Below, in pieces: positions 2,350 to 64,000 of a DNA stretch of 64,000 nt (positions within the stretch are counted from its first letter, which is position 1; each line of letters opens with the position of its first letter). Below the pieces are notes generated by a model, which was not told the DNA's origin, searched no databases, and saw only the letters and a program-made list of their open reading frames with translations. A program made the translations under genes and the position numbers. This DNA is from Tetradesmus obliquus. Its lineage: Eukaryota > Chlorophyta > Chlorophyceae > Sphaeropleales > Scenedesmaceae. The stretch is from the NCBI GenBank assembly GCA_030272155.1, contig CP126196.1:5208501-5272500 (forward strand), read 5' to 3'.

Positions 2350-3139
2350 ATGCAGTCACAGCAACTTCTCGCAGCAGGACGCAGCCGGCCATGCTTGGGT
2401 GTGGCACTGAGGCAACAGCTGCGTAAGCCAGCCCTGCTGTGCCGAGCAAACAGCAATGGAAATGGCGTCACATGCCCCACACCAGCTGAAACTGCGAGAA
2501 CTGTAGCTGACCTATGCACTGAAGGTGAGCTGAGACATGCATGCAGCTGGTGCTATAGCCTGCTGGTGAAGCTGCGTAGCATCTGAAGGGACATTGCTGC
2601 ATCTAGCACATGGTTGCATCGCCATTGTGCACAACCCACAGCTTTGGTGGTTTCACAGTTCAGCTGCATATTCAGCAGCTGCAATTCAGCAGGCAGGACG
2701 CAGTCATCAGGGAGCTTAGAAGGTGGCTGCAGACTGTGCAGCTGTAAGCAGTATCAGCTCAAAACAGCACCGGTTGTGGCTGCACACTGCCAGCAGCTGT
2801 GCCTTATTAACAACACAGCGCCAGCCGCGTGTGCTGTGGTGCCATTTGCGCTGTCATAGTTGTCACGGCAACCCTAGCAAGCCCCTGCCAGCCAAGCCCC
2901 TGGTCATCAATCCATTGTTTGTCGCAAGACATGCAAGCCGCGCCACAAGCTGGCTTGGAATTGCACAAGGTTCACGTGCACGCTAGTGACACAGCAAAGC
3001 ACTAGCGTCTTCTTGCCGGCGTGCCAGTCTTAGATGTGCATCCACACACCCTGCATTCTGCAAGCACTTGAGCTGGGTACACAGTCCCTCACAACGCGTG
3101 TCACAGTCCCTCACAACGCGATTGCTGCGCATAACGCGT

Positions 3140-3170
<31 letters not shown>

Positions 3171-5499
3171 TGCTGCTGCTGCTGCTGCTGCTGCCTTTAT
3201 CACGTGTTTCCAGGCTCGCTGTGCACCGTGACAGCTGACGGCCTGCCCCTAGCCGTGCCCGTGGCTTACAGCCTTGACGCAGCAGGCAACCCTGTGCTAC
3301 AGCTGGTGGCAGGATCAGCAGAAGCCTCTGCCCTGCAGGCCAGCCGCCGATGCAGCCTGCTGGTGCAGCCGGCCTCATTCCCGGCACGCAGCCTGGGCAG
3401 TGTTGCGCTGCAGGGCGCAGCGGCAGCAGTGGACGGCCAGGAGGGTGCCCCCAGCGGCAGCTGCCTGGTGACGCTGGCGGTGGACGGTGCCACGTACTAC
3501 GGTGGCCTGGACGCGGTGAGTGGCTTGCTGCTGAGCTTCGCAGCGCAAGTAGTTTGGGTTACATGTGGGTTGCTTTATACAAGGTTTCTATGGTACAAGC
3601 CGGTGGTTGTTCTGAGGGCGCAGCTTGGGCAGTGTTGCGCAGCAGCAGCGGACGGCCAGGAGGGTGCGCCGGCTGGCAGCTGCCTGGTGACGCTGGCAGT
3701 GGATGGGGCAACTTACTACGGCGGCCTGGACGCGGTGAGTGGCGTGCTATACTGAGCTTTGCAGCGCAAAGTATTCGGGATTATGTCTGGCTGTCCTGGT
3801 AAGGTTTGCAAGATGTAGCCGGCCTTTTTCCTGGCAGCTGCCTGGTGACGTTGGCGGTGGATGGTGCCACCTACTACGGCGGGCTCGACGCGGTGAGTGG
3901 CGTGCTGCTGAGCTTCGCAGTACAAGTAGTTTGGGTTACGTGTGGGTTGCTTTCTAACAGGGTGTGTATGGTGCAGCCGGTGGTTGTTCTCGGGGCGCAG
4001 CCTGGGCAGTGTTGCGCAGCAGCAGCGGACGGCCAGGAGGGTGCGCCGGCTGGCCGCTGCCTGGTGACGCTGGCAGTGGACGGCGCAACTTACTACGGCG
4101 GCCTGGACGCGGTGAGTGCGGGGTTGGTGCATTTGTTCTGTTCTGAGTGTGTTTCTGATGAAATTGTGGCAGCCGCCTGGTGATGGTGGCTGTGGACGGC
4201 GCCACGTACTAAGGCGGCCTGGATGCGGTGAGTGGCGTGCTATACTGAGCTTTGCAGCGCGAAGCATTGGGGGTTATGTCTGGCTGTCTTGGTAAGGTTT
4301 GCAAGATGCAGCCGACCTCTTTCCCTGCTGGCAGCTGCCTGGTGACGCTAGCGGTGGATGGGGCAACTTACTGTGGCGCCCTGGGACGCGGTAAGTGAGG
4401 AAACCATGGTTTTGGTGGATGTGCTGGCGCATAGCAGTGTCCTTTCTGAAGCGCATGAAGATGTGGGCTGTTTCATAATGTTTCTGGTGTGATCGCGGCA
4501 GCTGCGTGGTGATGCTGGCGGTGGATGGGCCGTGTACTATGGTGGTCTGGATGGGGTGAGTGAGGGGTGTGGTGGGCGTTCTGTAGCTGCCACCGTGTGC
4601 GGCCCGCACACGGGCTGGCTGTGCCTGGCGAGGAACAGCATGCAGCAGAGCCTTGTTTATTTGGCAACTCGCAATGCATGCATTTCAGCATACTGACTCA
4701 TAACAGCGCTGAATCAGCGCGCGCTGTGTGTGTTGCAAGAGCAGGTGGTCAGCTTGCTATGTGTCACCACATAGTACTTGACCCGCACCCGCTGACAGCG
4801 CCTGTGTATGCTGCCCCATCTCTTGTTTTGATTTGAAATTGCAGGCCGCACACGGGCTGGCTGTGCCTGGCGAGGAGTACCATGCGGCTGAGCCTTGTTC
4901 ATGTGGCAACTCACAAGTATGCTGCCTCGTGTCTTGTTTCATTGGGTGCAGGCTGCGCATGGCCTGGCTGTGCCTGGCGAGGAGTACCATGCGGCTGAGC
5001 CTTGTTCATGTGGCAACTCATAAGTATGCTGCCCCATCTCGTGTTTCATTGTGTGCAGGCCGCACATGGCCTGGCTGTGCCTGGCGAGGAGTACCATGCG
5101 GCTGAGCCAGACCTGCTGAGGCAGTCAGCCAGCACACTCATCAACACTTGGAACAGGTGCGGCAAGCGCCGGGTGCTGCCTTGCTTCGGCTAGATGGTTG
5201 GTTCACTATTGACCTGGAACCGGCACGGGTAGATGGTTGGCTTACTGTTCACATGGAGCACAAGCGGCAGCACGCACAGCAGGGTTTGCTGCTGCTGTGG
5301 GCAGGCAAGTGCTGCTGCTGGCTGGCAGTAGAGTAGCACAGGAGGGTGGGTGCAGCTGACTGTGCAGGGCTGGCAGCGTGCCGCTGGGAGCTGGCACCAC
5401 ACAGCCGGAAGCTTTTGCTCACAGGACAGCAGCTTGCAAGCAGACAGTGAGGCACCTGCAGTGCTTTGCCAGCAAACTGCCTTGCATCACCCAGACGTG

Positions 5500-5536
<37 letters not shown>

Positions 5537-5867
5537 CCGTGCTGCCTGCTGCCTGCTGCAGCGAGCGTGCTGAGGACATCTACCGCATCATGGCGCTGCA
5601 ACACTGCTGTGATTACATGCTTGCATCACCATGACATGCTGTTGCTGCTGCTGCTGCTGTGCGTGCTCCCTGTGCAGCGAGCGTGCTGAGGACATCAACC
5701 ACATTGTGGCGCTGCAACACTGCTGTGATTACATGCTTGCATCACCATGACATGCTGCTGCTGCTGCTGCTGCTGTGCGTGCTCCCTGTGCAGCGAGCGT
5801 GCTGAGGACATCTACCGCATCGTGGCGCTGCAGCTGGGCGTGCCGCTGATCGAGGTGAGCCGCTGCG

Positions 5868-5915
<48 letters not shown>

Positions 5916-6410
5916 GCGTTACTGCGGCAGCAGCAGCAGCAGCGAGCGCAAGCGCCTGTGCAGCCACATATTGTATATGGCTCATTTGCAGTGCATATGG
6001 CAGCGCAGCTCAGTGCTGCCTGCAGCATGTTTTTCTAAACAGCGCAGCCCTTTGGGGTGGACATTCTACGACGCAGGCACACAGCAGCCCCACCACCCAC
6101 TGGTCCTGTGAGCAGTGTGTCACGCCTCTGTGCCGCTGCTGTTCCCTGTGGTTGCCCTGCCACACTTTTGATGCTGCCGCAGATGCTGTATGCGGAGCTG
6201 CTGTGGGTTGACCGGCTGGGCATGTATGTGCGCGCCGAGGTGCTGGGCCGGCAGCCTGCCGTGGTGCGCGTGCCCTTCCACCGGCCTGTGCTTGACGAGC
6301 GCGATGCGCGCAGCGTGGTGACGATGGCGAGTCATATCAGCTGGGAGGCGGACCGGAAGTATGTGCCGCCGCCGCTGCCTACACCTACACCGGCCGGCAG
6401 CAACAACTAG
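2350..6410 (+). CDS. Plastid FMN-binding split-barrel / DUF2470 protein (GluTR-binding-protein/HugZ-like)
   Basis: Five exons join in phase: 2350-2524, 3214-3515, 5059-5156, 5794-5854 and 6183-6410, giving about 287 residues. The N-terminus (MQSQQLLAAGRSRPC, then a basic Leu-rich stretch) looks like a plastid transit peptide. Exon 2 encodes a pyridoxamine-phosphate-oxidase-like split barrel (GSLCTVTADGLPLAVPVAYS, later CLVTLAVDGATYYGGLDA). Exons 3-5 encode a DUF2470-like domain (LINTWNSERAEDIYRI, then LLWVDRLGMYVRAEVLG and RVPFHRPVLDERDAR). This pairing is typical of HugZ-like haem-utilisation proteins and of the plant glutamyl-tRNA-reductase-binding protein; the tetrapyrrole role is inferred from family. 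Introns 2, 3 and 4 hold arrays of partial exon copies listed separately. The model uses the copies that give one continuous frame; including any other copy is an untested alternative. It ends convergent with SLBP. Confidence 0.8.
3516..4560 (+). repeat. Six partial copies of exon 2 3' end + donor inside intron 2
   Basis: After the real exon 2 end at 3515, the segment encoding CLVTLAVDGATYYGGLDA and its GT donor recurs with exon ends at about 3734, 3892, 4111, 4227, 4390 and 4555. Spacing is 219, 158, 219, 116, 163 and 165 bp. Donors stay recognisable (GTGAGT, GTAAGT), while the copy ending at 4227 has a TAA in the TYYGG codons and later copies carry further changes. Copies become more diverged towards the 3' side. 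Confidence 0.85.
4590..5058 (+). repeat. Partial copies of exon 3 acceptor + 5' half upstream of exon 3
   Basis: The acceptor plus codons for AAHGLAVPGEEYHAAEP appear with starts at 4845 and 4952 before the real exon at 5059, a constant 107-bp period. A more diverged copy begins near 4597. Each copy stops at the same place in the exon and re-enters intron-like sequence, so these are tandem duplications across the acceptor. Confidence 0.85.
5545..5793 (+). repeat. Two partial copies of exon 4 acceptor + 5' end upstream of exon 4
   Basis: The SERAEDIYRI-encoding exon start occurs after CAG at 5562 and 5678, then in the real exon at 5794, an exact 116-bp period. The copies share the following CAACACTGCTGTGATTACAT segment and a CTG tract, and diverge from the real exon after the GCGCTGCA codons. 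Confidence 0.85.
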
Positions 6411-15693: not shown

Positions 15694-16072
15694 TTACTGC
15701 TGCTTAGCAGCAGGTGCAGCGCTGTCAGCAGCAGCAGCAGCAGTAACACCGCCCACCGCTGCCACGCACTTGCTGATGGTGCCTGCCAGAGCCAGCTTGT
15801 GTGCCCTGACTCAGGCCAACCCACACAGCCTGCCCGCTCACCGCCCGCAGCAGCAGCAGCAGCACTGTCAGCGCCGAGCCACCCCGCCTCAGGCCAAGCC
15901 TCACCACCGGCCGGCTCTCTACTGCTCAGCAGCAGGTGCAGCTCTGTCAGCAGCAGCAGCAGTAGCAACAACCGGCCCGCCGCCGCCCACCGCCGCCATG
16001 CACTCCCTGATGGCGCCTGCCAGTGCCAGCTCGGCTGCCCTCACGTAGACCAGCCCACACCCGCCTGCCCGC
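15694..16072 (-). repeat. Two extra tandem copies of the coiled-coil gene's terminal coding segment
   Basis: Immediately after the first stop (TGA, 16075-16073) the segment encoding LALAGTISKCVAAVGGGG through AAPAAEQ is repeated twice. Each copy carries its own stop at the equivalent place: TAG at 15921-15919 and TAA at 15696-15694. In translation the first copy reads LALAGAIRECMAAVGGGG. The copies lie in the 3' UTR if the first stop is used. Confidence 0.85.
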
Positions 16073-16638
16073 TCACTGCTGCTCAGCAGCAGGTGCAGCA
16101 CCGTCAGCAGCAGCAGCAGCAGTAGCAACAACCGGCCCGCCGCCGCCCACCGCCGCCACGCACTTGCTGATGGTGCCTGCCAGTGCCAGCTTGTCTCCCG
16201 GGGCCACTCCCTGCAGGCCCACCACACTCTTGGCCAGGCACGCCAGCCAGTCCAGCAGCGCCATGTTGGAGGACACCTGAGGAAAGGTGTGACACAGCAA
16301 GAAAGCACAGCAGCAGCGCTGTGGGTCAGCAATGAGCAGCAGGGCATGCTGTGGACACCTGGCCGGGTGTAAGACGCAGCGGCAGGCAGGCACGCCAGCC
16401 AGTCCAGCAGCGCCATGTTGCTGGACACCTGGGGGCGGGTACAGCACAGCAGGAAAGGCAGCAGCAGGGTGATGAGTGAGCAGCAAAAAAAGCAGCAGCG
16501 AAGGTACAGCAGCAAGCAGCGACAGGTGGGTGAGAACTTCAGAGGATGCCTTGTGGCGGGCCAGGGCAGCATGCAAGCCAGTCCAGCAGCGCCATGTTGC
16601 TGGACGCCTGGCGGCAGATGATACACAGTAGAGAAGAC

Positions 16639-16681
<43 letters not shown>

Positions 16682-18855
16682 CAGGTGCGTCAGCACGCCA
16701 GCCAGTCCAGCAGCGCCATGTTGGAGGACACCTGGAGGTGAGACACAGGGAGGGGGGTGGGGGGGTAGAACAGCAGCAGGCACGGCAGAAGAGTGGTGAG
16801 TCAGCTGCTTGGAGATAATGTGGAGGCGGGCCAGGTGAGCATACCGGCCAGTCCAGCAGCGCCATGTTGCTGGATACCTGGGGGGCAGATGCAGCACAGC
16901 AGCAAGCAGCAGCAGCAGCGCAGGCTGTGGGTCAGCAATGAGCAGCAGGGCATGCTGGTGGGCACCTGGCCGGGTGTGAGACAGCAGCGGCACGCATGCA
17001 AGCCAGTCCAGCAGCGCCATGTTGGAGGACACCTGAGGAGAGGTGTGACTCAGCAGCAAGCAGCAGCAGCAGGGTGATGAGTCGGCGCGTCAAACATGTG
17101 AAGGCGGGACACGTGAGCATACCGACCAGTCCAGCAGCGCCATGTTGCTGGACACCTGGAGATTGACACACAGCAGCAAGCGCAGCAGCAGCAAGCAGCA
17201 GCAGGCTGGTGAGTCAGCAGATCCGAGGCTACGCAGCGAGTCGAGCCAGCAGCACAGTAACGTTGTGCAGCAACGACTTCTGAGACGGCGCAGGCTGTAG
17301 GCCCGCAACCTACGAGTAGCAGACAGCACTCACCGAACGCAGCTGACAGACACATGAACGCAACACTGCTGGCAACCCCCGGTGCGTGCGCTGCGCTGCT
17401 GCAGCCACCCAGCTACACGCCGCGTCGCTCCTGCAAGCTTTCAGCATGCAGCCCCGCCACAACCCCTCGCCGTACCTGTGACTCCAGCAGCGTGCGCGGG
17501 TCAGCCTCCACCAGGCTGCCCACGCCCTCCACATCGCCCCGCCAGGCTCCTCGGCAGTCTTATGCAGCCCAACCAAATTGTATGCAGCCCACTCAACATA
17601 CACATACACCCAAATATAACCAAACAAGACGCTCAAACGCAACTGTCCAGCCCCGACCCGCACCTGTGACGCCAGCAGCGCGCGCACGCGTGGGTCAGCC
17701 TCCACCAGACTCCCTCCACCCTCCAAAGCGCCCCCAGGCTCCCCGGCAGTCTTTCGCAGCCCAACCAAATCTCAAGCAGCCCAACCAAAAACAAACAGAC
17801 ATATGAAACATACGCCCCAACATAAAATTACAACGCGGGCCCACCTGTGACGCCAGCAGCGCGCGCACGCGCGGGTCAGCCTCCACCGAACTGCCCCCGC
17901 CCTCCACCGCCCCGTCAGGCTCCCCGGCCGTCTGTTGCAGCCCAACCAAATCTTGATCAGCCCAACCAGTAACAAACAGACATGCAAAACAGACGCCCCA
18001 ACATGATATTCCAACGCGGGCCTACCTGTGACGCCAGCAGCGCGCGCACGCGCGGGTCAGCCTCCACCAGGCTGCCCCCACCCTCCACAGCCCCGCCAGG
18101 CTCCCCGGCAGTGAGCAGCGCCAGCTGCGCAGCAAGCTGCTCGTTGCGCCTTGCCAGCACCGCCAACTCAGCCTCCCTCAGAGCCAGCGCCTGCTTCGCT
18201 TCAGCAGCCACCTTCTCCGCTGCCGCTGCAGCCTCTGCTGCTGCTGCCTCAGCTGCTTGTGCAGCTTCTGCAGCAAGTGTGGCTTCAGCCGCCTTTGCCG
18301 CTTCTGCGGCAATCGCACCCTCTGCGGCGGCGCGTTTTGCGGCCTCTGCTGCGATTGCGGCTTCTGCAGCTGCCTTGCCTTGCTCAGCAGCAGTCGCCTG
18401 CGCCTCTGCAGCCTGCGCTGCCGCGGTGGCCTTCGCAGCTAGCTCCGTGGCTTTCGCTGCTTCTGCGGCACTCGTTTTCACGGCCTCGCTGCGCTGCTGG
18501 TCCTCGGCCGCTGCTGCTGCTGCCGCCACCGCCGCCACAACCTCTGCGGCCGCCATTGCGGCGCGGCTGTTGGCTGCTGCTGCGGCTTCTGCTGTCTCTG
18601 CTGCTGCCAGGGACAGCACCTCCTGCTCGAGTGCAGATACGCTGGCATCAATGTCGCCCCGTGCCGCATCCAGCTGGCCACACACCAGACCCATCTCGCC
18701 AGTGATGTCAGCAAGCACCTAAACGCATGTAGCACAGCAACAGCAGAGCGGCGTGCATGTCAGCGATGGCATGTCAAGGGCAGTGCCGTGATGTCAGCCA
18801 GCACCTGTTTGGGCCCAGCAACAAAATCAGACAGCACGGAAGGAAGGAGACGCAG

Positions 18856-20969: not shown

Positions 20970-22596
20970 ATGCTGCTACGACATGGGCACCACTACGTGC
21001 AGCTTCCTCCTGTTGCACGTATGCCCAACGCAGCAGCTGGTAGCAGCAGGCAGCTGGTCTCTTGGCCCTGCAGCAGACACCCCTGCCTGCTGAAACCGCT
21101 GCAACGGCCTGCCAGCAGCAGCAGGCAACTGCTTTCTGTACAAGCAAAGGTAAAATAGCCTTGCTGTAATGGACTCACCATTGTTATAGCAATAGAATGG
21201 CCATGCCATCAGCAATGGTTGACTGCTGTTTGAGCTTGCTTGCTGAGTCAGCGTGCATTCCTGCAAGTAGCTGGCTTGCCTGCTGGTGAGGCTGGCACGG
21301 CACACCTGCTGTGCTTGCTGAGTCCCAACATGTAACCTGGTTGCATTGCAGGCGGACCGTGACGCGGCAGCGCCTGAGCAGCAGCAGCAGCAGCAGCCTG
21401 GTGCAGCTGCCAAGCAGGTGAAGAAGCTCAAGCAGCTGACAGCGCAGCAGCAGCAGCTGGCTGCTGCGCGCAAGGCAGCAGCCACTGCAGCACAGCAGCA
21501 AGCAGCTGCCCAGCTGCAGCAACCAGCGGCAGCCTTAAAGCAAGTCAAGAAGACGCTTGCAGCAGCAGCAGCAACAGCCGCCAAGCAGGCACCCAGTGAC
21601 GGAGCCAGGCAGCAGCAGTTTGGCCCTCCACCAGCCACAGCAGCTTCACAAGCAGCACGCTCAGCAGTGAAGCAAGTCAAGAAGCGGCTAGGGCAGCTAC
21701 AGCAGCAGCAGTCAAACTCACAGCAGCAGCAGCAGCAGCAGCAGCTGGTGCCGCATGTGCCGCTGTTCGCTGGTGGGCTAGTGCCGCGGGATGGCAGCGG
21801 CGTGGCGCTGCTGCTGGCTGCTGGGCTGGCGGCGGTGGGCGCTGCACGGCTGCTGGCGGGACTGCTGGCACAGCCCAGCAGGGCACAGAGGTGGGTGGGG
21901 TGAAGAGAGGCACCCTGCATTGATTTGCAGCTGAGGGCGATGTGTGGTTGTGGGGGTGTTAGCAGCGGTTGTGTGCTGGTGCTAATTGCTGGGTGAGTGC
22001 TGGTCAGCAGCATGAAGGTCGGCTTTCACAGCAGCAGGTGGGTGTTGTGATGGCTGCTGGGCTGGCGCTGGTGGGCGCTGCGCGGCTGCTAGCAGGACTG
22101 CTGCTACAGCCCAGCAGGGCGCAGAGGTGGGCGGCGGGCGTGCATATCTTCCCTGCATGTATGCACTGCTTTGGTTGATCGCCGTGTGGATGTGGGGGCG
22201 TCAGCAGCGGTGTTTCTTGCCGCTTGGGGCGCTGGGCGAGTGCTGATCAGCAGCAGCATGAAGGTCGGCTTTTACAGCAGCAGGTGGGTGTTGTGATGGC
22301 TGCTGGGCTGGCTGCGGTGGGCGCTGTGCGGCTGCTGGCGGGGCTGCTGATACAGCCCAGCAGGGCACAGAGGTGGGCGGGGTGAAAGAAGAGCAGCACC
22401 CAGCATCAATTTGCAGCGATTGGCGATGTGTGGTTGTGGGGTGTCAGCAGCGGTTGCGTGGTGGTGCTGATTGCTGGGTGAGTGCTGGTGAGCAGCATAT
22501 AGGCCGGCTTGCACAGCAGCAGGTGGGTGCTGTGATGGCAGCGGCGTGCGCAGCTTATTCGTTTTCAAGTTGCCTGTTGGGTCAGCAACCTGACCA

Positions 22597-22652
<56 letters not shown>

Positions 22653-22819
22653 AGGGCTGTGGCTGACCGCAGCCACCTGCAAAACCTAGCTGCTGCTGCT
22701 GCTGCTGCCGGGCCTGGCAGCCTGCTGTCGCTGCCAGCCCCGCTGCTGGGTGGTGCACTGGAAGAGGTGATAGGCTTGTGCCTGTTGACGTTGTCTGTTG
22801 GGTCAGCAACTAATTGTCT

Positions 22820-22854
<35 letters not shown>

Positions 22855-25800
22855 CTGTTGCAGGGCTGTGGCTGACCGCAGCCACCTGCAGAGCCTAGCT
22901 GCTGCTGCTGCTGCTGCTGCTGGCCCTGGCAGCCTACTGTCACTGCCTGCCCCACTGCTGGGAGGTGCACTGGAAGAGGTGGAGCAGCACAGGCTGGGGC
23001 TGGCAGGGTTCAGGGAGCAGCTAGAGCACCTGGCGAGAGATGCGGCAGCAGCGCAGCAGCAGCTGGCGGCCTCTCTGCAGGACAGTGAGGATGACCTGGC
23101 AGCAGCGCTGCAGGTGAGGCAGGGGGAGGGCTAGGGGGGCCTAGCGGGCGGGGGGAGGGAGCGCTAGCCTGGTAGCAGCAGAGCAGCAGCAGCTGACAGC
23201 GCTGCAGTTGAGCCAGGGGGGCTTTGAGTCGATGGTAAGAAAGCAGGCAAGGGGTGAGATGTGGAGCAGCACCGCCTGGGGCTGGCAGGGTTCACGTAAC
23301 AACTGCAGCATCTGGCAACAGATGCAGCGGCAGCGTAGCAGCAGGTGAGGCAGGGAGATGGCTAGGAGGGGGGGGGGGCTAGGCTGGCAGCACCCTGTGC
23401 ATCTGGAGGTTTGGGAGGCTCCCCTGACATGTTGCTGCCCCACCGCCTGCTGCTTTGCCTGCGGGTCCCTGCAGACCGTATCAGGCTTTGAGGCCGACCT
23501 GTCTGATGCGGGCCTGCCTCCTCTCACCTGCTTCCGCACCGCCTGCCACTGCTGGTGATATTGTCACCGCCCCCCTTGCAGACTGTGTCAGGCCTAGAGT
23601 CTGACTTATCCTACGTGGCAAGCTTGCTGGCCAGTCAAGAAGCAGTGCTGGCAGGCCTGGGCCAGGAGGCGGCAGCAGCACTCTTTGGTACTGGAGTATA
23701 CATAAGGCTTCCCTGACATGTTGCTGCCGCTCCGCCTGCTGCTGTGGCTGTTGCCTTTGGTTTTTTGTGGCTGGCTGACTCTTTTGTTTTGCACCTTTCC
23801 TTTTGCAGACCGTATCAGGCCTTGAGTCCGACCTGTCTGACGTGGCAAGCTTGCTGGCCAGTCAAGAAACAGTGCTGGCAGGCCTGGGCCAGGAGGCGGC
23901 AGCAGCAGCAGCAGCGCACCGTGCCAGCCTGGGGGCCAGTCAGCGCAAAGTGGCGCTGCTGGAAGCAGCAGTGGAAAGTTTGACGCAAAGGTTGCAGCAG
24001 GCGGGGCAGGCGGCGGCGGCTGTGGCGGCAGCGGGCGGGCAGGAGCTAGCAGGTGCGGGGTGGAGCAAAAATTGTGTGCGGAGGTGCTTGCGCAGCGTCC
24101 TGCTGATTCAGTTGTGTGTTTGAGGAAGCTGTGAGGGGACTGGCGCTGAAAGGCAGGAGCTGGCAGGTGCGGGGTGGTGATGCATGCGCAGCCTGCTGCT
24201 GTTTCAGCTTTGTTTGCGTTTGTGAGGAATCTGAAAGGAACCGGCAACAGGCAGGCGCTGGCAGGTGAGGTGCAGGCCTAGTGCCAGCCTGGGGGGCTGC
24301 TGCTGCTGCTGCTGCTGTTGCTGCTGCTGGTGATGGCACTGTTGCTGGCAGCTGGGCTGGTTCTTTGAGCATAGCGCCAGCCTGGGGGCCAGCCAGCGCA
24401 AGGTGGCACTGCTGGAAGCAGCAGTGGAAAGTTTGACGCAGCGGCTGCAGCAGGCGGGGCAGGCGGCGGCAGCTGTGGCAGCAGCAGGGGGGCAGGAGCT
24501 AGCAGGTGCGGGGTGGAGCAAAATCGTGTGTGGAGCTGCTTGCACAGCCTGCTGTTCTAACATTGTTTTTGTTTTTGGAGGAATCTGCAAGAAACCGGCA
24601 ACAGGCAGGAGCTGGCAGGTGAGGTGGAGGCAGGTGCCAGCCTGGGGGCTAGTCAGTGCAAGGTGGCACTGCTGGAAGCAGCAATATATAGTTTGACGAC
24701 AAGGTTGCGGCGGGCGGGGCAGGCGGCGGCAGCTGTGGCGGCGGCAGGGGGGCAGGAGATAGCAGGTGCGGGATGGTGTAGTGGTGCATGCGTAGCGTTC
24801 TGCTGCTGTTTTGGTTTTGTGTTTGAAGAGGCTGTGAGGACACTGGCGACGAAAGGCAGGGGCTGGCAGGTGAGGTGGCGGCAGGTGCCAGCCTGGGGGC
24901 CTGCTGTTGCTGCTGCTGCTTGTGCTGCCGCTGCTGCTGGTGATGGCACTGTTGCTGGCAGCTGGGCTGGTTTCTGAGCATAGTGCCAGCCTGGGGGCTA
25001 GTCAGCGCAAAGTGGCGCTGCTTGAAGCAGCAGTGGAGAGCCTGATGCAAAGATTGCAGCAGGCGGGGCAGGCGGCGGCAGCTGTGGCGGCAGCAGGCGG
25101 GCAGGAGCTAGCAGGTAAGGGGGTGGTGATGCATGCGCAGCCTGCTGCTGTTTCAGTTTTGTGTTTGAGGAAGCTGTGAGGAAACTGGCCAGGAAAGGCA
25201 GGGGAGGAGGGGGCGGGGGGGGGGGGGGGGGGTGACAGGGGCTGCGGCCGGCATGCGCAGTGCCGGTGGTGGTGCGCAGTGCCGGAGGGGGAGTGCAGGA
25301 GGGTGGGTTGCGCATGCGGAGGGTGGCAGCTGCTTTAGGCAGATGTCTTGCCGCCCCTGCTGCTGCTGCCGCTGCTGCTGCTACTGCTCGTGATGTCAAT
25401 GTGGCTAGCTGGTACACCACGCCATGAGCGCAGCTGGCGGCATGCGCGCTTTGCTCATGGATCGGCTGTGCACCTGCGTGCTGCTGCTGCTGCTGCTGCA
25501 GGTGCGCTGTCCGCTGAGCACGATGCCGTGGCAGCTGCGCGCGCTGAGCTCGTGTCTTACAGTACTGCTGTGCCTGTGGCTCTGCACTTATGCACTAGCA
25601 CTGCTGCTGCTGCTGCTGCTGCAGGTGCGCTGTCTGCCGAGCACGATGCCGTGGCTGCTGCGCGGGCTGAGCTGGCGGCCCAGGTGGAGGCACTAAGGGA
25701 GCAGCTGGGGCAGGCACAGGTGGGGGAGGGGGCTGGGTTGAGATATTATTGGGGTATAAAATGGGATACTATTAGGACAGCATTGGGGTATGCTGCAGAT

Positions 25801-28800
25801 GGAGGTGTGGCTGGAGGCACTGCGGGAGCAGCTGGGGCAGGCACAGGTGGGGGGAGGGGGCTGCTGGACTTCTGCCAGCTCCTAAACTTCTGCCTTCGGA
25901 TGCTGCTTTACTCCCTCCCTTAGTCCCAGCAGGCCCGCACGACTGCTGCGGAGGGCCGTGCAATTGAGCTGGGGGCGCAGCTGGCAGTGCAGCTGGCAGT
26001 GCAGCTGGCAGTGGCTGTGGCGCAGCTGTGTGGCTGCACCTGTTTTCCGAAGCCTTTGCGCCCGCTCTGTTCTCTCACTTTCCCATGTTCTTTCAGGCCC
26101 GCCTGGCTGCGGAGGGTCGTGCCGCTGAGCTGGAGGCGCAATGGCTTTTGCACTAGTGTCCTGAACATTCAGGTTCACCTTGTGCCCCTGCCCCTGTCTC
26201 CCTTTTCTCTTCACCTTTACAGGCCCGGCTGGCTTGCTGCGCAGGGCCGTGCCGCTGTGCTGGAGGCACAGCTGTCGTGTGGCAGTTGTGTGGCTGTTAC
26301 ACCAGTGTGCTGAATCCTTTGCGCCCGCTATTTTCTCTTGATGTTTACCTATTTGCCACAGGCGCGGCTGGCAGCTGCGGATGGCCGTGCCGCTGTGCTG
26401 GAGGCGCAGCTGTCGTGTGGCAGTTGTGTGGCTGTTGCACCTGTTTTCTGAAGCCTCTGCGGCCGCTCTGTTCTCTCACCTTCTCATTTTCTTTCAGGCG
26501 CGGCTGGCAGCTGCTGAGGGCCGTGCCGCTGAGCTGGGGGCGCAGCTGGCAGTGGCTGCGCCTTTTGCACCAGTGTTCTGCTTCCGCTACTCCTGCTCCT
26601 CCCTCTTGTGCCCTACCTCCTCATGCCCGGCTGGCTGCCACAGAGGGCCACACCGCTGAGCATGCTGCTGTACAACATGCAGCGCTGCACCCACTAACAC
26701 CACCTGCTGCCTGTTGTTTGCCCTTTCTCCGCAGGCCCGCCTGGCTGCTGCTGAGGGCCGTGCCGCTGAGCTGGAGGCGCAGCTGGCGCTGCTGACAGGG
26801 GCGCAGCAGCAGCTGGGGGCGCGCCTGGCAGCGCTGGAAGGGGACGCGGCAGCAGCAGCAGCAGGCGTGAAGGAGGTGCGGTGGGCGGCATCGGGTTGCA
26901 GCAGCAGCGGCAGCAGCGTGTGTGGATTTTGGCTTGTGGTGTGGTGCTGGAAGGGGATGCAGCAGCAGCAGCAGCAGCAGGTGTCAAGGAGGTGCGCGGT
27001 AGCGGTTACACAGCGGCAGCAGCAGCACCGGCAGCCGCTGCAGTGCTGTGCCACAGACGCTGCAGTGCTGCGCCACAGACCCTGCTGCCGCCAGCACCGG
27101 CATCCCTGCTGCTGCTCTGCCTGCTGCGCGCCTAGCTTGCTGCAGCTGCGGTGCTTACGCAGCACCTGGCGTCTTTCTACATCTGCCACCTGCTGCCTTG
27201 CTTTTGAAGACCCAACCAGGGCCCCAGCTGACTGTGTCTGATTGTGCTGCTTGCATTGTGTCTGCTTTGCTTTGTTGCTATGGCCGCAGGCTGTGGCTGC
27301 TACCTCCCGGCCTGCTGCCTTGCCCTGTTGGTGTCATTCAGGGCAACAGCTGACTGTACTGCTTGCACTGCGCTTGCTTTGCGCCTGCTGTGTTTTGTTG
27401 CTATGGCCGCAGGCTGTGGCTGGTCCTGCTGGCACCACTGCTGCCTTGCTTTTGTAATGTTGGTTAGGATAACAAATCAGTTAGGATAACAAGTGGATTG
27501 TGCCTGATTGTGACGCTTGGGCCGTGTGTGCTTTGCGCGTATGGCCGCAGGCTGTGGCTGCTACCTCCCGGCCTGCTGCCTTGCCCTGTTGGTGTCATTT
27601 AGGGCAACAGCTGACTGTACTGCTTGCACTGCGCTTGCTTTGCGCCTGCTTTGTTGTGTTGCTATGGCCGCAGGCTGTGGCTGGTCCTGCTGGCACCACT
27701 GCTGCCTTGCTTTTGTAATGTTGGTTAGGATAACAAATCAGTTAGGATAACAAGTGGATTGTGCCTGATTGTGACGCTTGGGCCGTGTGTGCTTTGCGCG
27801 TATGGCTGCAGGCTGTGGCTGCTGCCTCCCCGCCCTGCTGCCTTGCCCTGTTGGTGTCATTCAGGGCAACAGCTGACTGTACTGCTTGCACTGTGCCTGC
27901 TTTGCGCCTGCTGTGTTTTGTTGCTATGGCTGCAGGCTGTGGCTGCTGTATGCAGGCTGTGGCTTCTGTATCACAGCAACACCTGATTGCTGCTCACACT
28001 TTGCCTGCACACTGCCTGGATTGCACGTTTGACCGCAGGCTGTGGCTGCAGCCGAGGAACGGCTGGAGCAGGCGGCAGCATTTGCAGCAGCAGGCAGGGA
28101 AGCAGCGGCGGCTGTGGCGCAGCTGCAGCAGCAGGTGGCTGACAGGCAGGCTGAGCTGGCAAGCCTGCAGCAGCAGCTGATGGCAGCAAAGCAGGCAGCG
28201 GATGCAGCAGCAGCAGCAGGAGATGGGCAGGCAGGTGGGCAGGAAGAGGCAGCAGCTGCTGGCAGCAGCACAGAACAGCAGCAGCAGCAGCAGCAGCAGC
28301 AGCTGCTGAGTGCTGCTGCTGCTGCCAAGGCAGTGCAGCTGGAGGAGGTGCAGCTGCATCTGGAGCAGCAGCTGCAGCAGGTGAGTGCCGCAACGCTACG
28401 TCAAACAGCCAGCAGCTGCAGTGTTGATCTGCCTCAACCTGTGCCTGGTACTCATTTGCTCAGCACTGCAGTCACCATGCAGACCGCTGCGCTGACCGCG
28501 TTAGCAGCCAGCAGCTGCCGCTGATGAGTGCAGGGGCGCTGAATCAACAGCCAGCAGCTGCAGTGCTTGCGCTGCCGGTGCCTAATGTTCATTTGCTTGC
28601 ACTGCCGTCACCATGCAGACCCGCTGCAGAGCACATCTGTGCTTGTTTGCATGCTCACATCTGCACATTGGTAAACCAGCAGCCCGTCTAGCTCTGTGGT
28701 GACTGTGCTGCTGCCGCTGCTGCTGCTGCTGCTGCTGCCTGCAGGCTCGTGCTGCTGCTGCCAGCCGCCAGTCTGAGCTGGCGGTGCTGCTTGCTGACGT

Positions 28801-29098: not shown

Positions 29099-29647
29099 GA
29101 GGCAGATGCTTCTGGCAGCAGGGCAGCAGCGCTTGCAGCCGCCATGGATCAGGTGGCAGCAGCTGAGGTGCGGCGCATGCGTCTGCAAGATCGCATGCAG
29201 TGCTGATGAGTGACAGCGGCAATCTGCTCTGATGCTCTGCGGCAGTATACGGCTTTCTTGTTGGCCTGCCTTGTAGTTTTGAGCTGCAACTTGGTGTGCA
29301 TGCAGTTGCCAGCTTCTCTCATGCCATCTGTTTGTGTGTTGGGCTTTACGTGCTGTTGAAAATCACACAGCCAAAGATGCTGCTGCGTCTGCCCTGAGAG
29401 GCGGCAGCCGGAACTTGCTGCCCCTGCCCTCGCTGCATGCGGTGCTGTCGTTGGCTGCCTCGGCTCACCCCGTTTCCCGCCTGGCTCGACTTGCGCTGCC
29501 TCGCGGCTTGCGCTGCTGCTGCTGCTTCTGGTTTTTAGGAGGCTGCCGAGGCAGTGCTGCAGGAGCTAGGGCTGCCGCAACTGTGCCTGTGTGATCGCTG
29601 CTGATAATCTGCCTCGTTGTTGCCCTGCTGCTAATTTGCCTTGTTTG

Positions 29648-30205: not shown

Positions 30206-31504
30206 CGTGCAGTCTGAGCAGCTGCTGCAGCTGCTGAGGGCTAACATGAGCAGTGAGATGATAGCAAAGGAGGCGGCACTGCGCCAAGAACTACAACAGC
30301 TGCAGCAGCAGGCCGAGCCCGCACTGCATCTGCTGGCAGCAGCAGAGGCCGAGAGGCGGGCTGCGGCAGAGGCAGCAGCAGCAGCAGAGGCTGAAGCAGC
30401 AGCAGCAGCAGAGGCTGAGGCAGTTCGGCTAGCAGCAGCAGAGGAGGCAGCAGCACGGGCCCGGTCGCAGGCGCTTGCTGCTGCTGCTGCTGAGGCTAAG
30501 GCTGCTGCTGCTGCTGCAGCTGAAGCAGAGGCACAGCTGGCTGCTGCAGAGGCAGCTGCACGGGCAGAGGCGGAAGCAGCAGCCAGAGCAGAGGTCGAAG
30601 CAGCAGCACAGGCAGTTGCAGCAGCTGCAGAGGCAACTGCACAAGCAGCAGCCACGGCAGAGGTGGAAGCAGCTGCGGAAGCAGCAGCTAAGGCAGAAGC
30701 AGAGGCAGCAGCACAGGCAGCAGCAGACTCTGCAGTAGCAGAGGCAGCAGCAGACGCCGCAGCAGACGCCGCAGCAGCAGAGGCAGCAGCAGATGTTGCA
30801 GCTGCGGAAGCCGCGGCTCTTACAGCAGCGCATGCTGAGGTGTCTGAGAGCATGGCGTCTGTGGAGAGCGCGCTTCTGTCTGTGCAGCAGCAGCAGGAGG
30901 AGCAGCTGCAGCAGCTGCAGCAGCAGCAGCCTGCCGTGGCGCTGGTGCAGGTGCAGGCGCAGCTGAGGGCCCTGTCGGGGCTGCAGGCTGAGCTGGAGCA
31001 GCAGGAGGCACAGCTGGCTGCACTGCGCTACAGGTGGGGGCAGCAGCAGCAGCTGTTGTGCATGCGAAGAGCAGCAGCAGCAGCAGGCTGTGTTGTTGAT
31101 GAAGTAGCAGCCTTGATGCGGTGGCTGATGCACGTGCTGCACAGGCATCTCAATCTTCTTGTTGAGACATGGTGCAGGGGTTGTGTTTGTGTGTTTGTGT
31201 GTTGTGTGTTGTGTGCTGAGGGCCCTGTCGGGGCTGCAGGCTGAGCTGGAGCAGCACGGGGCACAGCTGGCTGCACTGCGCTACAGGTGGGGGCAGCTTA
31301 GGATGTGCAGCAGCAGCAGCAGCAGCTGGCTGTGGTGGATTGTGATGTAGTGGCGTTCCGCATTTTGCGGCGCGCGCACAATATCGTTTTGTGGGGCAGC
31401 ACAGCAGGTAACAGGGCAGGAGCATAACATGTTGGTGCTGTGCTGTCGTACCTTCACGGAATCTGCCGCCACGCTGAAAGCTGCTCGATGCCCCAGGCTC
31501 ACTC

Positions 31505-34500: not shown

Positions 34501-37500
34501 GCGTGCGTGGCTGGTTGTCTGCATACATACCGCCCTCTGCTGTGTTTGAGGTGTGCCTGGTGGGGGATGTGGGGCGGCGGCTGATACGAGGCGGACGAGT
34601 GACAGCAGCAACAGAGGTGCGGCGCGCTTGGCAGGCAATGAGGTTTTGGGTGCAGTTGTACTTGTTTCTTGTGCATGCATCGCATGTTGAAGCCACACAG
34701 GCATGCGTGCATGGCTGCCCCTCTGCATTCATAGCGCCCTCTGCTGTGCTGGAGGTGTGCCTGGTGGGTGATGTGGGGCTGCGGCTGATACGAGGCGGCA
34801 GAGTAACAGCAGCAACAGAGGTGTGGCGCGCTTGGCAGGCAGCGATGGTGTGGGGTGTGTACCTGTGTCTTGTGCATGCACTGCATCCTGGAGCCACATG
34901 TGCGCTGCACCGGGTGCGTGCGTGGCTGGTTGTCTGCATTCATAGCGCCCTCTGCTGTGCTGGAGGTGTGCCTGGTGGGTGATGTGGGGCTGCGGCTGAT
35001 ACGAGGCGGCAGAGTAACAGCAGCAACAGAGGTGTGGCGCGCTTGGCAGGCAACGATGGTGTGTGTGTGGGGGGTGTACCTGTGTCTTGTGCATGCACTG
35101 CATCCTGGAGCCACATGTGCGCTGCACCGGGTGCGTGCGTGGCTGCCCCTCTGAACGTATAGCGCCCTCTGCTGTGTTTGAGGTGTGCTTGGTGGGTGAT
35201 GTGGGGCTGCGGCTGATACGAGGTGGAAGGGTCACAGCAGCAACAGAGGTGCGGCGCGGCTGGCAGCATGTTGTGGGGTGTGTACCTGTGTCTTGTGCAT
35301 GCACTGCATCCTGGAGCCACTCATGGACTGCACCGGGTGCGTGCGTGGCTGGTTGTCTGCATTCATAGCGCCCTCTGCTGTGCTGGAGGTGTGGCCTTGC
35401 AATCTACTGCTCCAGAGGAATTCAATATTCTGCTTGGCTGCTGTGTGTCTGCAGGTGCAGGAGCACTCGTTCAACACCCCATATCAGCTGGGGCACCTGG
35501 GGCTGCTGCCCGGCTCTGACACTGCGGGCATGGGCCTGGGCTACAGCCTGGCGCTGGCTGCTGGTGACGTCATCATTGCCGGCAGTGACGGGCTGTGGGA
35601 CAACGTGTGGGACGACCAGCTGGAGGGACTGGTGCAGCAGGGGCTGCGGTGGGTGCATTTTCTTACAAGCTGGGATCAAAGGGGTTGATGGTGTCAACTG
35701 TTTTTCAGAGACGCGTGGGACCATCTGGAGGTGCTGGTGGCGGCTGGGCTGCGTTGAGCGCTGCTTGTTTCTTTGCGGCGAGATCAAGGAAGCGGTTTCA
35801 AATATCCACTGTTATTCTTTGAAAATTGGGGATAATCAGCTTGAGGGGCTGGTGGCGGCTGGGCTGTGGTGAGGAAGAGGATTTGACATTGTTGACACTA
35901 TTGCATGTGTATTTAGGTGTTTGACGAGCAGCGGGAGGCCCTGATTGCAGACGTGCTGCGATTAGGGTTTGGGGCATGGGACTCGCATGCCACGAAGCCT
36001 CATTGCAACCCGCTTGCAACCAGGGCCCCGCGCTGCTTGTCAAACACCTAAAAACACATGCAATGTGACGTTGCTATATTGTGTAATCGGTTGGGCTACG
36101 GCCTGGCGGCTGGTGATGTTGTCATTGCCGGCAGTGACGGGCTGTGGGACAACGTGTGGGACGACCAGCTGGAGGCGCTGGTGCAGCAGGGCTGCGGTGA
36201 GCGTGGTTTAGTTGACTTGGCGACTCGTGTTATCACTTTGGTGATGCATCTTTGAGTGTAGAATGATCAGTGGGGGGCTGGTGCCGCAGAGGCTGCGGTG
36301 GATTACGGAATCAATGTACACCTGCAAAACAACATTGAGTTTTTAGAATTGTGAGGGGTGGGAGGCGGGGGCACAGTTGGTTATGTGACGACACGTCAAC
36401 GTCGGAGTAGGGTTTGGGACAGCTCAGAGCGTGCACAGCAACGGAGCGATGAGCACAGCGTGACAGCGCCTTGTGTGGTGCAAGCCGTGCATGCTGCTGC
36501 CCTCTGCACATGCTGTGCGCTGCTGCCAACCTCACGGCTTTTTTCCCTGCCTGCTGCGCTGCCTGTGCAGGCATCTGCCGCCCTCTGCTGCCGCCTGGGA
36601 TGCTGCTGCTGCTGCGCGGCTGGCTCGCTCTATTGCTGAGGTGGCGGCCGGCCAGGCTGGCGACAGCAACTTCAGGAGCCCCTGGGCGGTGGAGCTGGCG
36701 GAGCGCATGCCACAGGTGAACTTTGGAGGAGGTGGGGCCGATTTAGAGGGTGTCTGTGTAGTACAGCCCCTCATGCAGTCTATTGCTGAGGTGGCTGCTG
36801 GCCAGGCTGCCGACAGCAACTTCAGGAGCCCCTGGGCGGTAGAGCTGGCAGAGCGCATGCCGCAGGTGGGCATGTACTTGTTTTTGAGCTGTTGATGGAG
36901 CAATTGTGGAGGGCTGGAGGTCATGTGGGCTTGGCTGCAGAACTGCGCAGTGACTACGGCAGCGGCCTTGATTGAAGGGAGGTTGCTTGGGCAGCAGGTT
37001 TTCTTTGCGGTCGATTGCTGAGGTGGCGGCTGGTCAGGCTGCTGACAGCAATCTCAAAAGCCCCTGGGCGGTAGAGCTGGCGGAGCGCATGCCCACCTGC
37101 TTGTTTGCATTTGTGTTTCTATTCCGTGTGTGCATGTGGGTGGGGGGGGGGGGGGGGGGGGCGGGGAGGGGGGACACTATATGTGATGTGAGCCTCATTC
37201 AGAGCTGTGCAGGGAGCGTGGGTAGGTGCTGTTGCTGATGTGGCTGTTGCTGGCTCGCTCTAGTGCTGAGGTGGCAGCTGGCCAGGCTGCCGACAGCATC
37301 TTCAAGAGCCCTTGGGCGGTGGAGCTGGCGGAGCGCATGCCGCAGGTTTGTGAGTTTGGTAGTGTGGGCACCTTTCCTTTTGTTGTTCAGACATCACCTC
37401 CATCCTGCAGTGGGTGGGCAAACAGGCGGCCCTGGCGTGGGGGTCTGCGTTGTAGCTGGCTCCTCATGCAATCTGCAAGTTCGTGTGGTGTGGCCTGAGC

Positions 37501-55968: not shown

Positions 55969-56097
55969 GCTGTTGCCTATGAGGTTACTGGTGGCCGCTG
56001 CAGGTGGTTTTTGCAGGGTTTTCTGCAGCACGGTGAGGAACAGCAAGAACTTGTGTGTATGTGTGCATCAGATGCCATTCGTCTGCCAGCATTGTGC

Positions 56098-59352: not shown

Positions 59353-59368
59353 CCTAGCTATAGCTAGG
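59353..59368. repeat. 16-bp palindrome CCTAGCTATAGCTAGG
   Basis: A perfect self-complementary 16-mer, flanked by AG on the left and TGAGAGGCT on the right that partly extends the stem (AGCCTAG...). Possible hairpin or binding site. Confidence 0.65.
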
Positions 59369-61725: not shown

Positions 61726-61785
<60 letters not shown>

Positions 61786-64000
61786 CCTGTTAGGGAGTGA
61801 TACATACAAGGCAGGGAAGACGACGGAGACTGCGTACACGCTGGTCCGCGCAATACAGTGTCTATAAGCACCCTGGGCTATGTTTGAGCTAGTACATACG
61901 CAACTGCACTGCTGCACACTCGCAGCCAGCCGCCGCACCTGCCCATCACCGACACCACCGGCAGCATGCGCATGGCCTCCTTTGCACATGCGGTGAGGTA
62001 TGGCAGCTGCTTGAGGTCCTCCCACTCCAGCTCTCGTGGCGGCGGGCAGCCCGGCTTGGCCAGCAGCCCCAGGCAGTCTAACTCTTCAGCGATCTTGGCC
62101 TGCACGCCCGGCACGCTGGCGATGTTGAACAGCGTCCAGCTGGTGGTGTGGCCCGTGGTCTCAAAGCCCTCCACAAACAGGATGCCGATCTCTGACAGGA
62201 TGCGGTCCCTGGATAGCTCCGGGTGAGTGTTCATCACACGCACCAGCTGGCTGCCAATGTCAGTGTCATCCTCTGCCGGTGGGCCACGCGCCTGTGAGAG
62301 GTTTGGAAATAAGGGTGAGTGCAGGGGCAGCAGAGCAGGAAAGACGTGAGCCGGGTGTGCTGCGGTTGCTGCAGGCATGCCGTGTTGGCAAATGGCATGA
62401 AGGAACTCGCATGCAGGTGCCATGATGGCAAGGGTGCCTAAGCCATGCTGCAGCAGCAGCACAACCGGATGGCGCCAGCATGCCATGAAACAGACCTATG
62501 ACCGGCTGCCGCGCCCAGCAGTCGAGCCGGGCTGATGCACACGCCAGCTGAGCAATCTCCTGCAGCACTCCTGCAACCCGCTGCAGCCAACTGTAGCAGT
62601 GCTGGCTGCGTCCGTCCAGTCTCCTCAACCCCTCCTGTGAACCACAGCACCCGCAGCCCACCGCCCCCAGCCCACCACCCCAGCCCATCCCCCCAGCCCA
62701 CCACCCCAGCCCACCACCCCAGCCCACCACCCCAGCCCACCGTCCCCAGCCCACCACCCCCAGCCCACCACCCAGCCCACCACCCCAGCCCACCGCCACC
62801 AGTCCACCACCCCAGCCCACCGGTCCAGCCCACCGGCCAGCCCACGCCCCCAGCCCACCGCCCAGCCCACCACCCCAGCCCACCGCCACCAGTCCACCAC
62901 CCCAGCCCACCGGTCCAGCCCACCGCCCGGCCCACCTGCAGGTTGTCCAGCAGCTTGGCCATCTCGCGCTGGAAGGCTCCAAAGGCAGCACTGCCCTTGG
63001 GCCCGTACTTGAACATGGTGGGGAACAGGGGGCGCAGCGGGTTTGCGATGCGCAGCATGACCTCGGTAAAGCAGCGCGGCAGCACGCGGATCAGGTGGTC
63101 GTACGCGGGCACGTCCTGAGACACGCAGTCGTAGTCGTGGCCAAAGCCGGCCTGGCAGCAGCAGCAGCAGGAACAAGGCAAAGACACCAGCGGCAGAGCA
63201 GGCACAGCAGCTTGGTGAGCTGTGCTGGCAGCAATAGTCGTCGCCAAAGCTGGCCTGAGGGAAGGCAGAATGGGTGGAGAGCATGTCATGTAGCAGGTGG
63301 CAGGCAGTGCAGAGGAGGGTGGCGGGGTTGGTGTCAATTGACAGTGCTGCACGTGACATGGTCAGAGAACATAGGGGTAACAGCAAGTTCAATCTCCATT
63401 GCTATGGGTCAAGCGGCATGCAGGTGCCACAAATGCCAGCTGCAAGTACATAGGCTTACTGCCTGCCCAGTTCTCTGTGCAATTACGCTACTGCCAAGCT
63501 GCTGTTGCACCTGCCTTGCTAGCAGCAGGTCCCTCCACTACACAAGAGCATCATCCGCTAGCCAACCCTCCACTGCCGCCAGCGCAGCCAGCTTCCTCCA
63601 CCTGCCTACATCACCACCACCATCTGAACCCTTTACCCTCTCACCAGGCCGATCACGTCCAGAGTCACTCGCAGCGCCGCCTGGTCCACATCAACGCTCG
63701 CCGCCGGCACCCACCCAAACCCTCCAAATCCCAACCCTTAACCCCTAAACCCTCTCACCAGGCCGATCACATCCAGCGTCACTCGCAGCGCCGCCTGGTC
63801 CACATCAATGCTCGCCGCCGGCCCCTGCGCCGCAATGCGGCCCACCAGCTGATTCACGCGCCCCAGCACCAGCGGGAACTTCTTCTTGATGTGCTGGATG
63901 CTGAAGCTGACGGCAACAGCCTTGCGCACAGCCTTCCAGGAGTCGTTTGCTGCGCTTGTCAGCAGGTTGGCGTTGCCGTGCGGGTCGCACATGCGGTTGA
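60901..64000 (-). CDS. Cytochrome P450 (5' end outside window)
   Basis: Haem-thiolate monooxygenase. Five exons on the minus strand join in phase: over 64000-63759, 63151-62936, 62291-61939, 61715-61439 and 61083-60901, about 423 codons here. Diagnostic motifs are present in order. The C-helix region is NDSWKAVRKAVAVSFS, where W-K-R contacts haem propionates. The I-helix is FVEGFETTGHTTSW (the G-E-T-T oxygen-activating site). The K-helix ExxR is KEAMRML, the PERW motif is FNPERWL, and the haem loop is FMPFSEGPRNCVGQ with the axial Cys. The last exon continues with SLAKMEVMTLLVKLCANF. The N-terminal anchor or transit peptide lies beyond 64000. Between PERW and the haem loop there is an Ala/Ser-rich insertion (AAAATGDMAAAASSSK). 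Substrate and CYP family cannot be assigned from the sequence alone. Several introns contain partial exon copies. Confidence 0.92.
61100..61200 (-). repeat. Partial copy of P450 last-exon acceptor + 5' end
   Basis: CTG tract, CAG, then TCCCTGGCCAAGCTGGAGTG (minus strand, exon-like start near 61189) copies the real last exon start at 61083 (SLAKMEVM). The copy reaches a stop after SLAKLE. It lies upstream of the real exon. Confidence 0.8.
61725..61780 (+). repeat. Triplet tract near the P450 exon 4 acceptor
   Basis: A CAG tract (CTG on the coding strand) of about 18 units ends about 10 nt before the acceptor at 61716. Confidence 0.75.
62640..62935 (+). repeat. Minisatellite CCCAGCCCACCAC in a P450 intron
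   Basis: About 300 bp of 12-13-bp units (CCCAGCCCACCAC, with CACCGCCACCAGTCC variants) lie directly after the donor at 62935. A longer sub-block is itself duplicated: the CCACCGCCACCAGTCCACCA block occurs at about 62799 and 62880. On the coding strand the array is G-rich (GGTGGGCTGGG), so many GT donors and potential quadruplexes adjoin the real donor. Confidence 0.85.
63225..63270 (-). repeat. Partial copy of P450 exon 2 acceptor + 5' end
   Basis: CCCTCAG followed by codons for ASFGDDYCCQ copies the real exon start at 63151 (AGFGHDYDCV), upstream of it by about 104 bp. Confidence 0.8.
63630..63758 (-). repeat. Copy of P450 exon 3' end + donor
   Basis: Codons for ASVDVDQAALRVTLDVIGL and the GTGAGAGGG donor, real at 63759, recur about 118 bp downstream with the donor near 63640. 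The coding part is almost unchanged. Confidence 0.85.

Follow-up and report, generated by a model that had tools for sequence, protein, structure and literature searches.

Introns in a 64,000-nucleotide stretch of the green alga Tetradesmus obliquus (the window; C6:5208501-5272500 of a 104.66-Mb assembly in 17 contigs) contain rows of partial copies of the adjoining exon, each copy including just one end of that exon. These arrays are most probably the remnants, left in the introns, of local tandem duplications that happened again and again. In the proposed course of events, a segment of ~100-260 bp that holds one exon-intron junction would be duplicated head to tail, presumably via unequal exchange or replication slippage. 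The copy attached to the remainder of the exon would stay exon, and the extra copy would land on the intron side. The protein would be unchanged while the outermost donor and acceptor stay in use, and repeated events, including duplication of blocks of copies, would lengthen the intron. The copies would then mostly decay, and the units of an array, the live exon included, probably still exchange sequence.

Self-comparison of the window gave 79 near-diagonal repeat pairs; they form 22 clusters, which take up 27.9% of the sequence. One run of a first-order Markov (dinucleotide) shuffle of the window gave no repeat pair. On exon junctions read by hand, 23 arrays with 59 copies were measured, 13 of them donor-type (exon 3' end plus donor) and 10 acceptor-type (acceptor plus exon 5' end). 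A copy was counted if at least 80% identical to its probe; matches below 80% (two in PP-4 among them) and simple-repeat matches without a junction were excluded before the count. Three extra arrays, CC-3, CC-9 and one in a cytochrome P450 gene, were read by eye and stand outside all of these counts. Base-by-base reading covered 3.2-6.4, 15.5-18.7, 21.3-37.4 and 63.5-64.0 kb; the rest of the window was covered by self-comparison, whose repeat groups carry no junction placement. Neighbouring copies are spaced by a median of 164 bp (10-90% range 112-256 bp, n=57), and Tandem Repeats Finder assigns the array rows periods of 107-261, as in head-to-tail duplication. The initial annotation had spoken of about two dozen arrays with periods of 100-260 bp in five genes, and both figures hold up well: we count 23 measured arrays plus three by eye. 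They lie in gene 1, gene M1, the P450 gene and a stretch at 21.9-37.4 kb with one gene or two, which makes four or five genes.

The full-length protein check of splicing covers gene 1 (2350..6410, plus strand), which encodes a DUF2470 / glutamyl-tRNA reductase binding protein-like product from exons 2350-2524, 3214-3515, 5059-5156, 5794-5854 and 6183-6410. Six donor-type copies (G1-A, 3660..4562, plus strand) lie downstream of exon 3214-3515, with GT directly after all six copies of the exon end at 3515. Three acceptor-type copies (G1-B, 4595..5001, plus strand) lie upstream of exon 5059, with AG kept in 2/3, and two more (G1-C, 5552..5716, plus strand) lie upstream of exon 5794. The hand-spliced product shows 1 mismatch in 287 residues against the T. 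obliquus protein P0001 (UniProt A0A383VSP0), and none of the 11 partial copies is present in the P0001 product. This match establishes which junctions of gene 1 are used and rules the 11 copies out of that product. P0001 is backed by seven contigs, which we take from their 'lgn' label to be Logan assemblies; each has at most 1,663 bases against a gene 1 span of 4,061, so that they are probably complementary DNA (cDNA). Four relatives' proteins align across the entire query at 66-83% identity, and no copy occurs in the five relatives' gene 1 proteins that were fetched (256-301 amino acids); some of these accessions have a style that presumably marks transcriptome records. For M1, a protein search returned two partial matches, which do not confirm its splicing. 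A single-residue difference was also seen in exon 3214-3515, with V in the window, A in P0001 and an A codon in two of the intronic copies.

Placement of the copies relative to their exon was scored by searching the 4 kb upstream and the 4 kb downstream of every exon, with simple-sequence matches filtered. Donor-type copies had been claimed to lie downstream of the complete exon and acceptor-type copies upstream, with wrong-side arrays named as counter-evidence. The rule is borne out: 58 matches fall on the predicted side, at least 3 of them in sequence assigned to other exons or arrays (22992-23059, 25988-26041 and 25489-25546), and 2 fall on the opposite side. The two opposite-side matches are weak (scores 24 and 22) against scores of 57 and 76, obtained with a slightly longer probe, for those two arrays' own copies. 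The filter also removed the CC-2 and CC-8 copies from this search. The rule gives no evidence of a special mechanism, as any tandem duplication of a one-junction segment yields it: the copy lies on the intron side because only one of the two tandem copies remains attached to the remainder of the exon. The side rule separates tandem duplication from dispersed or templated insertion, and nothing further.

The intron part of the copies was compared as well. An 80-nt intron flank aligns to the flank of another copy (z>5) for 38/57 copies, and 6/57 are intermediate between z<=3 and z>5. Within these 38/57, divergence is 0.119 in the flank and 0.117 in the exon part of the same pairs, where the partner is the best-matching flank, a choice that favours low flank divergence. 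Such equal divergence fits what would be expected if entire junction-spanning units were duplicated. Far stronger conservation of the exon part than of the intron part was considered and dropped, since taking the best-matching flank erased most of the difference; this choice shrinks it because the arrays hold higher-order blocks. Two array regions were also searched against the genome, limited to candidates and with simple repeats skipped, and had no match elsewhere.

Array growth accounts for much of intron length. The 14 array introns have a median length of 947.5 bp, and their core, the part between the last donor copy and the first acceptor copy, has a median of 285.5 bp. The claim of intron expansion by repeated single-junction tandem duplication is upheld: in the array introns examined it explains the larger part of their length, with arrays supplying 68% of the total; CC-3 and CC-9 are omitted from this sum, so that the core is overstated if anything, and one intron start (29167) comes from the gene model alone. 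Four array-free introns of the same genes measure 292-689 bp. Published mean intron lengths are 462 bp in T. obliquus, 230-302 bp in three other Sphaeropleales and 270 bp in Chlamydomonas reinhardtii (PMC5966456). Array growth fits the long introns published for T. obliquus, and the 286-bp core is close to the mean introns of its relatives. The initial annotation had tentatively called the mechanism ongoing and genome-specific; some copies remain at 95-100% identity, which suggests that expansion may be ongoing. The arrays offer a concrete, countable mechanism for introns 1.5-2 times the length of those of relatives, a question often answered with transposons.

As had been proposed, the copies leave decoy splice sites in the introns: among copies with a mapped junction, GT is kept in 29/31 donor copies and AG in 24/26 acceptor copies. 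Scored with a matrix derived from a rough gene model, donors reach 6.5 at real sites vs 5.5 at decoys (p 0.37), and 26/31 decoys attain at least 80% of the real site. Acceptors reach 6.0 vs 4.1 (p 0.23), with 15/26 decoys at or above that level. The matrix was all that was kept, for these scores, from an unsupervised gene-finding hidden Markov model (HMM), which drifted to tiny exons and took copies as exons; its exons were discarded. Because decoys score like real sites, splicing must pick the outermost donor by another cue. The simplest idea is that exons are recognised whole, in which case a copy, which has a single end of the exon, would be ignored. Such introns amount to a natural experiment on how splice sites are chosen: they offer as many as six additional donors or acceptors of similar sequence, and the outermost is apparently still preferred.

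Junction-spanning duplication is also present in loci outside the window. On 10/17 contigs we sampled 27 loci, each 10 kb long and set by fixed coordinates; 24 were usable, one being left out for N and two for satellite DNA. Two of the sampled loci, L013 and L023, carry satellite-like repeats throughout and have a GC content of 0.48-0.49 vs 0.54-0.61 in other sampled loci. The 24 loci hold 68 local-repeat clusters, found in 18/24 loci, at a density of 28 per 100 kb vs 34 in the window. An HMM version trained on curated exons was applied to these loci, and their figures are rough, as this gene model also takes some copies as exons. A predicted junction lies inside 38/68 clusters vs 25.6 expected (sd 2.9), and 0/400 rotations reach 38, with a maximum of 33. 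Of the junctions whose exon extends beyond the repeat, the side rule holds for 36 and fails for 6.

Whether junctions are targeted is a separate matter. Random segments of the observed sizes were placed on these genes with the copies removed; among those that held either exactly one junction or intron sequence only, 65% held the junction. In the curated genes, one junction is spanned by 25/26 arrays (23 measured and 2 by eye, the remaining one being the intron-only array seen at 28382-28627), a count that omits the P450 array and an unclassed repeat group at 15.1-15.5 kb. Against 65%, the binomial p is 0.0002, or 0.004 if the count is 25/28. The one-junction excess is modest and targeting need not be assumed; part of the excess may reflect detection, because exon parts are easier to recognise.

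It is rather unlikely, in our judgement, that the arrays reflect nothing more than ordinary minisatellite turnover in a repeat-rich genome, unrelated to junctions. They resemble minisatellites in their head-to-tail units, their turnover and the exchange among units; random placement by itself already gives 65% single-junction units, and 30/68 sample clusters lie away from predicted junctions. In contrast to minisatellites, the units here are exon-edge pieces, with splice dinucleotides mostly intact and with a position set relative to a junction. The 25/26 arrays spanning a junction in curated genes speak against such turnover, as do the 38/68 sample clusters with a predicted junction vs 25.6 expected, with the reservation that the gene model also calls copies exons.

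A second strain of the species was reached through the T. obliquus protein P0060, which is 93% identical to the scored part of the joined exons of the PP2C gene. P0060 derives from a contig of 6,180,925 bases, the window's contig having 6,224,436, and evidently from an assembly that differs from that of the window. Its gene model, apparently automated, takes in decoys, with a match to 34142-34195 and with PP-5 copies together with intron, so that arrays exist in that other assembly too. As seen along the window, decoy copies and intron are treated as coding in that model at 36571-37347 and 34142-34405; gene models in such genomes may mistake decoy copies for exons, as seemingly happened here. 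Between the window and P0060, two clear copy pairs differ at 3/15 and 4/29 residues (7/44), and three real exons differ at 3/157. Corresponding copies seem to be older than the strain split and to be decaying now.

Several observations weigh against our account. At the level of the duplicated unit, 13/57 copies lack an alignable flank (z<=3) with an exon part only 14% diverged, a state that a free-decay simulation fails to reproduce. Between neighbouring copies, the exon part is the less diverged in 19/21 alignable pairs (0.093 vs 0.162). The gene model is doubtful at the six wrong-side junctions of the sample loci, which belong to 3 repeat clusters with identities of 63-72%. P0049, a database fragment of a related alga, continues beyond a gene 1 exon donor and is an unspliced or retained-intron form. 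At the coding level, the codons that differ between exon and copy are synonymous vs non-synonymous at 171 : 106, or 62% (bootstrap 52-69%), where random mutation is expected to give 28-34%. By our estimate, a constrained exon compared with a freely decaying copy would give at most ~45-48%, so that 62% is more than free copy decay alone can give. Changes unique to a copy, at 47 : 56, are also above the neutral share (p 4e-4).

Differences between exon and copy number 65, 62 and 190 at codon positions 1, 2 and 3, a position-3 excess of 3.2-fold (bootstrap over 23 arrays 2.4-4.4). Thirteen of the 59 copies are broken, 12 by frameshift and 2 by stop, and 18/20 gaps in the exon part shift the frame. 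The synonymous to non-synonymous ratio is 31 : 38 (45%) in broken copies and 140 : 68 (67%) in unbroken ones. Variants common to several units stand at 26 : 6; single-base changes unique to a copy number 32, 23 and 40 at codon positions 1, 2 and 3. Over ten arrays with at least 4 units, the homoplasy excess is 14 vs 3.9-4.8 simulated; 11/14 excess homoplasies come from three seven-unit arrays, simulated in only 20 replicates each, and in four arrays there is no excess. Exchange among the units of an array, with the live exon as one of them, or mixing of diverged alleles is the likeliest, if unproven, cause of the synonymous excess. Exchange with the live exon fits because a lineage that passes through the exon loses harmful changes.

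We tentatively raise the possibility that the intronic copies form a standing reservoir that still exchanges sequence with the live exon. If true, thousands of non-coding exon fragments would feed changes into algal proteins, with selection filtering each copy that becomes part of an exon. This would also explain why copies look selected, with mostly synonymous differences, despite many being broken.

An unlikely origin of the copies is unequal recombination with diverged alleles or cryptic species as partners. The synonymous differences in a copy would then be those of live alleles elsewhere and would not stem from exchange with the exon on its own chromosome. Several data agree with this reading. 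Variants shared among units are strongly synonymous (26 : 6), with copy-unique ones less so (47 : 56), and at several residues a window copy has, by eye, the state of the other strain's exon. Those residues could, however, be ancestral. Either kind of exchange would yield the homoplasy excess (14 vs 3.9-4.8), and with a strain comparison at the protein level, allele mixing and within-chromosome exchange are indistinguishable.

That many copies are working alternative exons under protein selection, rather than dead decoys, is quite improbable. This proposal draws on a synonymous excess among the copies themselves, at 244 : 224 over all copy-copy pairs and 29 : 24, or 55% (bootstrap 41-67%), in nearest pairs, both vs 28-34% expected. 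It draws also on 46/59 copies being unbroken, on the retained GT (29/31) and AG (24/26), on the trained gene model taking several copies as exons, and on a junction core better conserved than the exon body, a comparison biased by choosing copies through junction or exon-part alignment. However, the gene 1 protein and the five fetched relatives' proteins contain no copy, and the spacing is often not divisible by three (211, 204, 211 and 217 in PP-3d). We rank working exons low because of the frameshifts (18/20 exon-part gaps break the frame) and the strain comparison, in which copies differ at 7/44 residues vs 3/157 for real exons. Read-through from the exon into the copies was also considered, as many of the frames are open, and set aside: long open frames are common, with 195 of at least 120 amino acids in the six frames of the window, and the spacings break the frame. 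Insertion of exon-edge pieces by transposons (introner-like elements) or templated repair, to which the 13/57 copies without alignable intron flank might point, is very improbable given one-sided copies (58 vs 2 weak), no genome match elsewhere for the two array regions searched, and an intron flank common to another copy in 38/57.

Duplication in place of a junction-spanning segment has partial counterparts in known systems. Zhuo et al. 2007 reportedly described how an intron can be gained when a proto-splice site within an exon is duplicated in tandem. The same process is treated by Lehmann et al. 2010 (PMC2891723). The likeness lies in a local tandem duplication that includes splice-site sequence and alters gene structure with the protein kept. 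In that system, however, the duplication falls within an exon and yields a new intron, whereas here the arrays adjoin existing junctions and the copies lie inside existing introns, an existing junction is spanned, the intron is lengthened and decoys are left. Tandem exon duplication with mutually exclusive exons, of which OGDH is reportedly a case (PMC7969005), likewise repeats exon sequence inside an intron. In contrast to those exons, a measured-array copy holds one exon end only and not both splice sites as in a whole-exon duplication, 13/59 copies are broken, and none occurs in the gene 1 protein. Introner elements are a further case in which many introns of one genome are shaped by one repeated process, and the arrays share this feature. 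Unlike introners, which are near-identical sequences dispersed over many introns, each array copies the neighbouring exon alone, and for the two array regions searched there is no dispersed family. The open-library literature held no description of junction-spanning duplication lengthening introns, genome-scale or otherwise, and the word 'intron' is absent from the text of one T. obliquus genome paper (PMC7590803).

The remaining arrays are as follows. M1, on the minus strand, has three donor-type copies at 17469..17919 after the exon ending at 18026 (M1-a), six acceptor-type copies at 16387..17158 before the exon starting at 16276 (M1-b) and two donor-type copies at 15749..16031 after the exon ending at 16151 (M1-c). 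The CC arrays lie on the plus strand and begin with two donor-type copies at 22052..22380 after the exon ending 21890 (CC-1) and one acceptor-type copy at 22646..22708 before exon 22864 (CC-2). CC-3, by eye and self-BLAST and outside the 23, is one donor-type copy at 23257..23347 after the exon ending 23113. Two acceptor-type copies at 23470..23641 precede exon 23809 (CC-4), and three long donor-type copies plus one short at 24152..25122 follow the exon ending 24052 (CC-5). Exon 25625 is preceded by one acceptor-type copy at 25492..25546 (CC-5b), and the exon ending 25719 is followed by one donor-type copy at 25812..25853 (CC-6). Then come six acceptor-type copies at 25924..26661 before exon 26735 (CC-7) and one donor-type copy at 26946..26996 after the exon ending 26875 (CC-8). 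The acceptor-type CC-9 (~27230..27957, before exon 28039; by eye and outside the 23) has an exon part of only 12 nt. CC-11 is one acceptor-type copy at 29529..29578 before exon 29714. CC-12 is one donor-type copy, 98% identical, at 31215..31294 after the exon ending 31033, and CC-13 is one donor-type copy, with its donor GT lost, at 31719..31765 after the exon ending 31662.

In the PP2C gene, also on the plus strand, three acceptor-type copies at 31981..32456 precede exon 32559 (PP-1) and two donor-type copies at 33557..33867 follow the exon ending 33368 (PP-2). One acceptor-type copy at 34142..34195 stands before exon 34271 (PP-3a), and four donor-type copies spaced by 204-217 occupy 34543..35256 after the exon ending 34405 (PP-3d). 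PP-4 (35917..36301, donor-type, after the exon ending 35648) has three counted copies, at 36123-36199 (97%), 36256-36301 (85%) and 35917-35968 (80%, doubtful), and weaker, uncounted matches at 35711 and 35829 (74-76%). PP-5 comprises three donor-type copies at 36791..37347 after the exon ending 36715. The P450 array, by eye and outside the 23, is one donor-type copy at 63645..63710, which follows, on the minus strand, an exon with its end at 63759. At 62648-62936, a CCCAGCCCAC-type minisatellite lies apparently within an intron of this minus-strand gene.

Other repeats were seen in and beyond the window. The repeat groups at 44.6-47.3 and 48.8-49.3 kb have no predicted junction inside. Within the former, 44630-47336 holds four copies of ~230-330 bp, ~750-900 bp apart and 76-87% identical, which may represent the duplication of whole domains or whole exons in a minus-strand gene. 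A 20-base unit is repeated in eleven copies at 56094-56312. Outside the window, G000:C7:5449444-5449710 has a pair of AAA-domain matches, 162 bases apart, that cover almost identical positions of the profile, possibly a further partial-exon copy.

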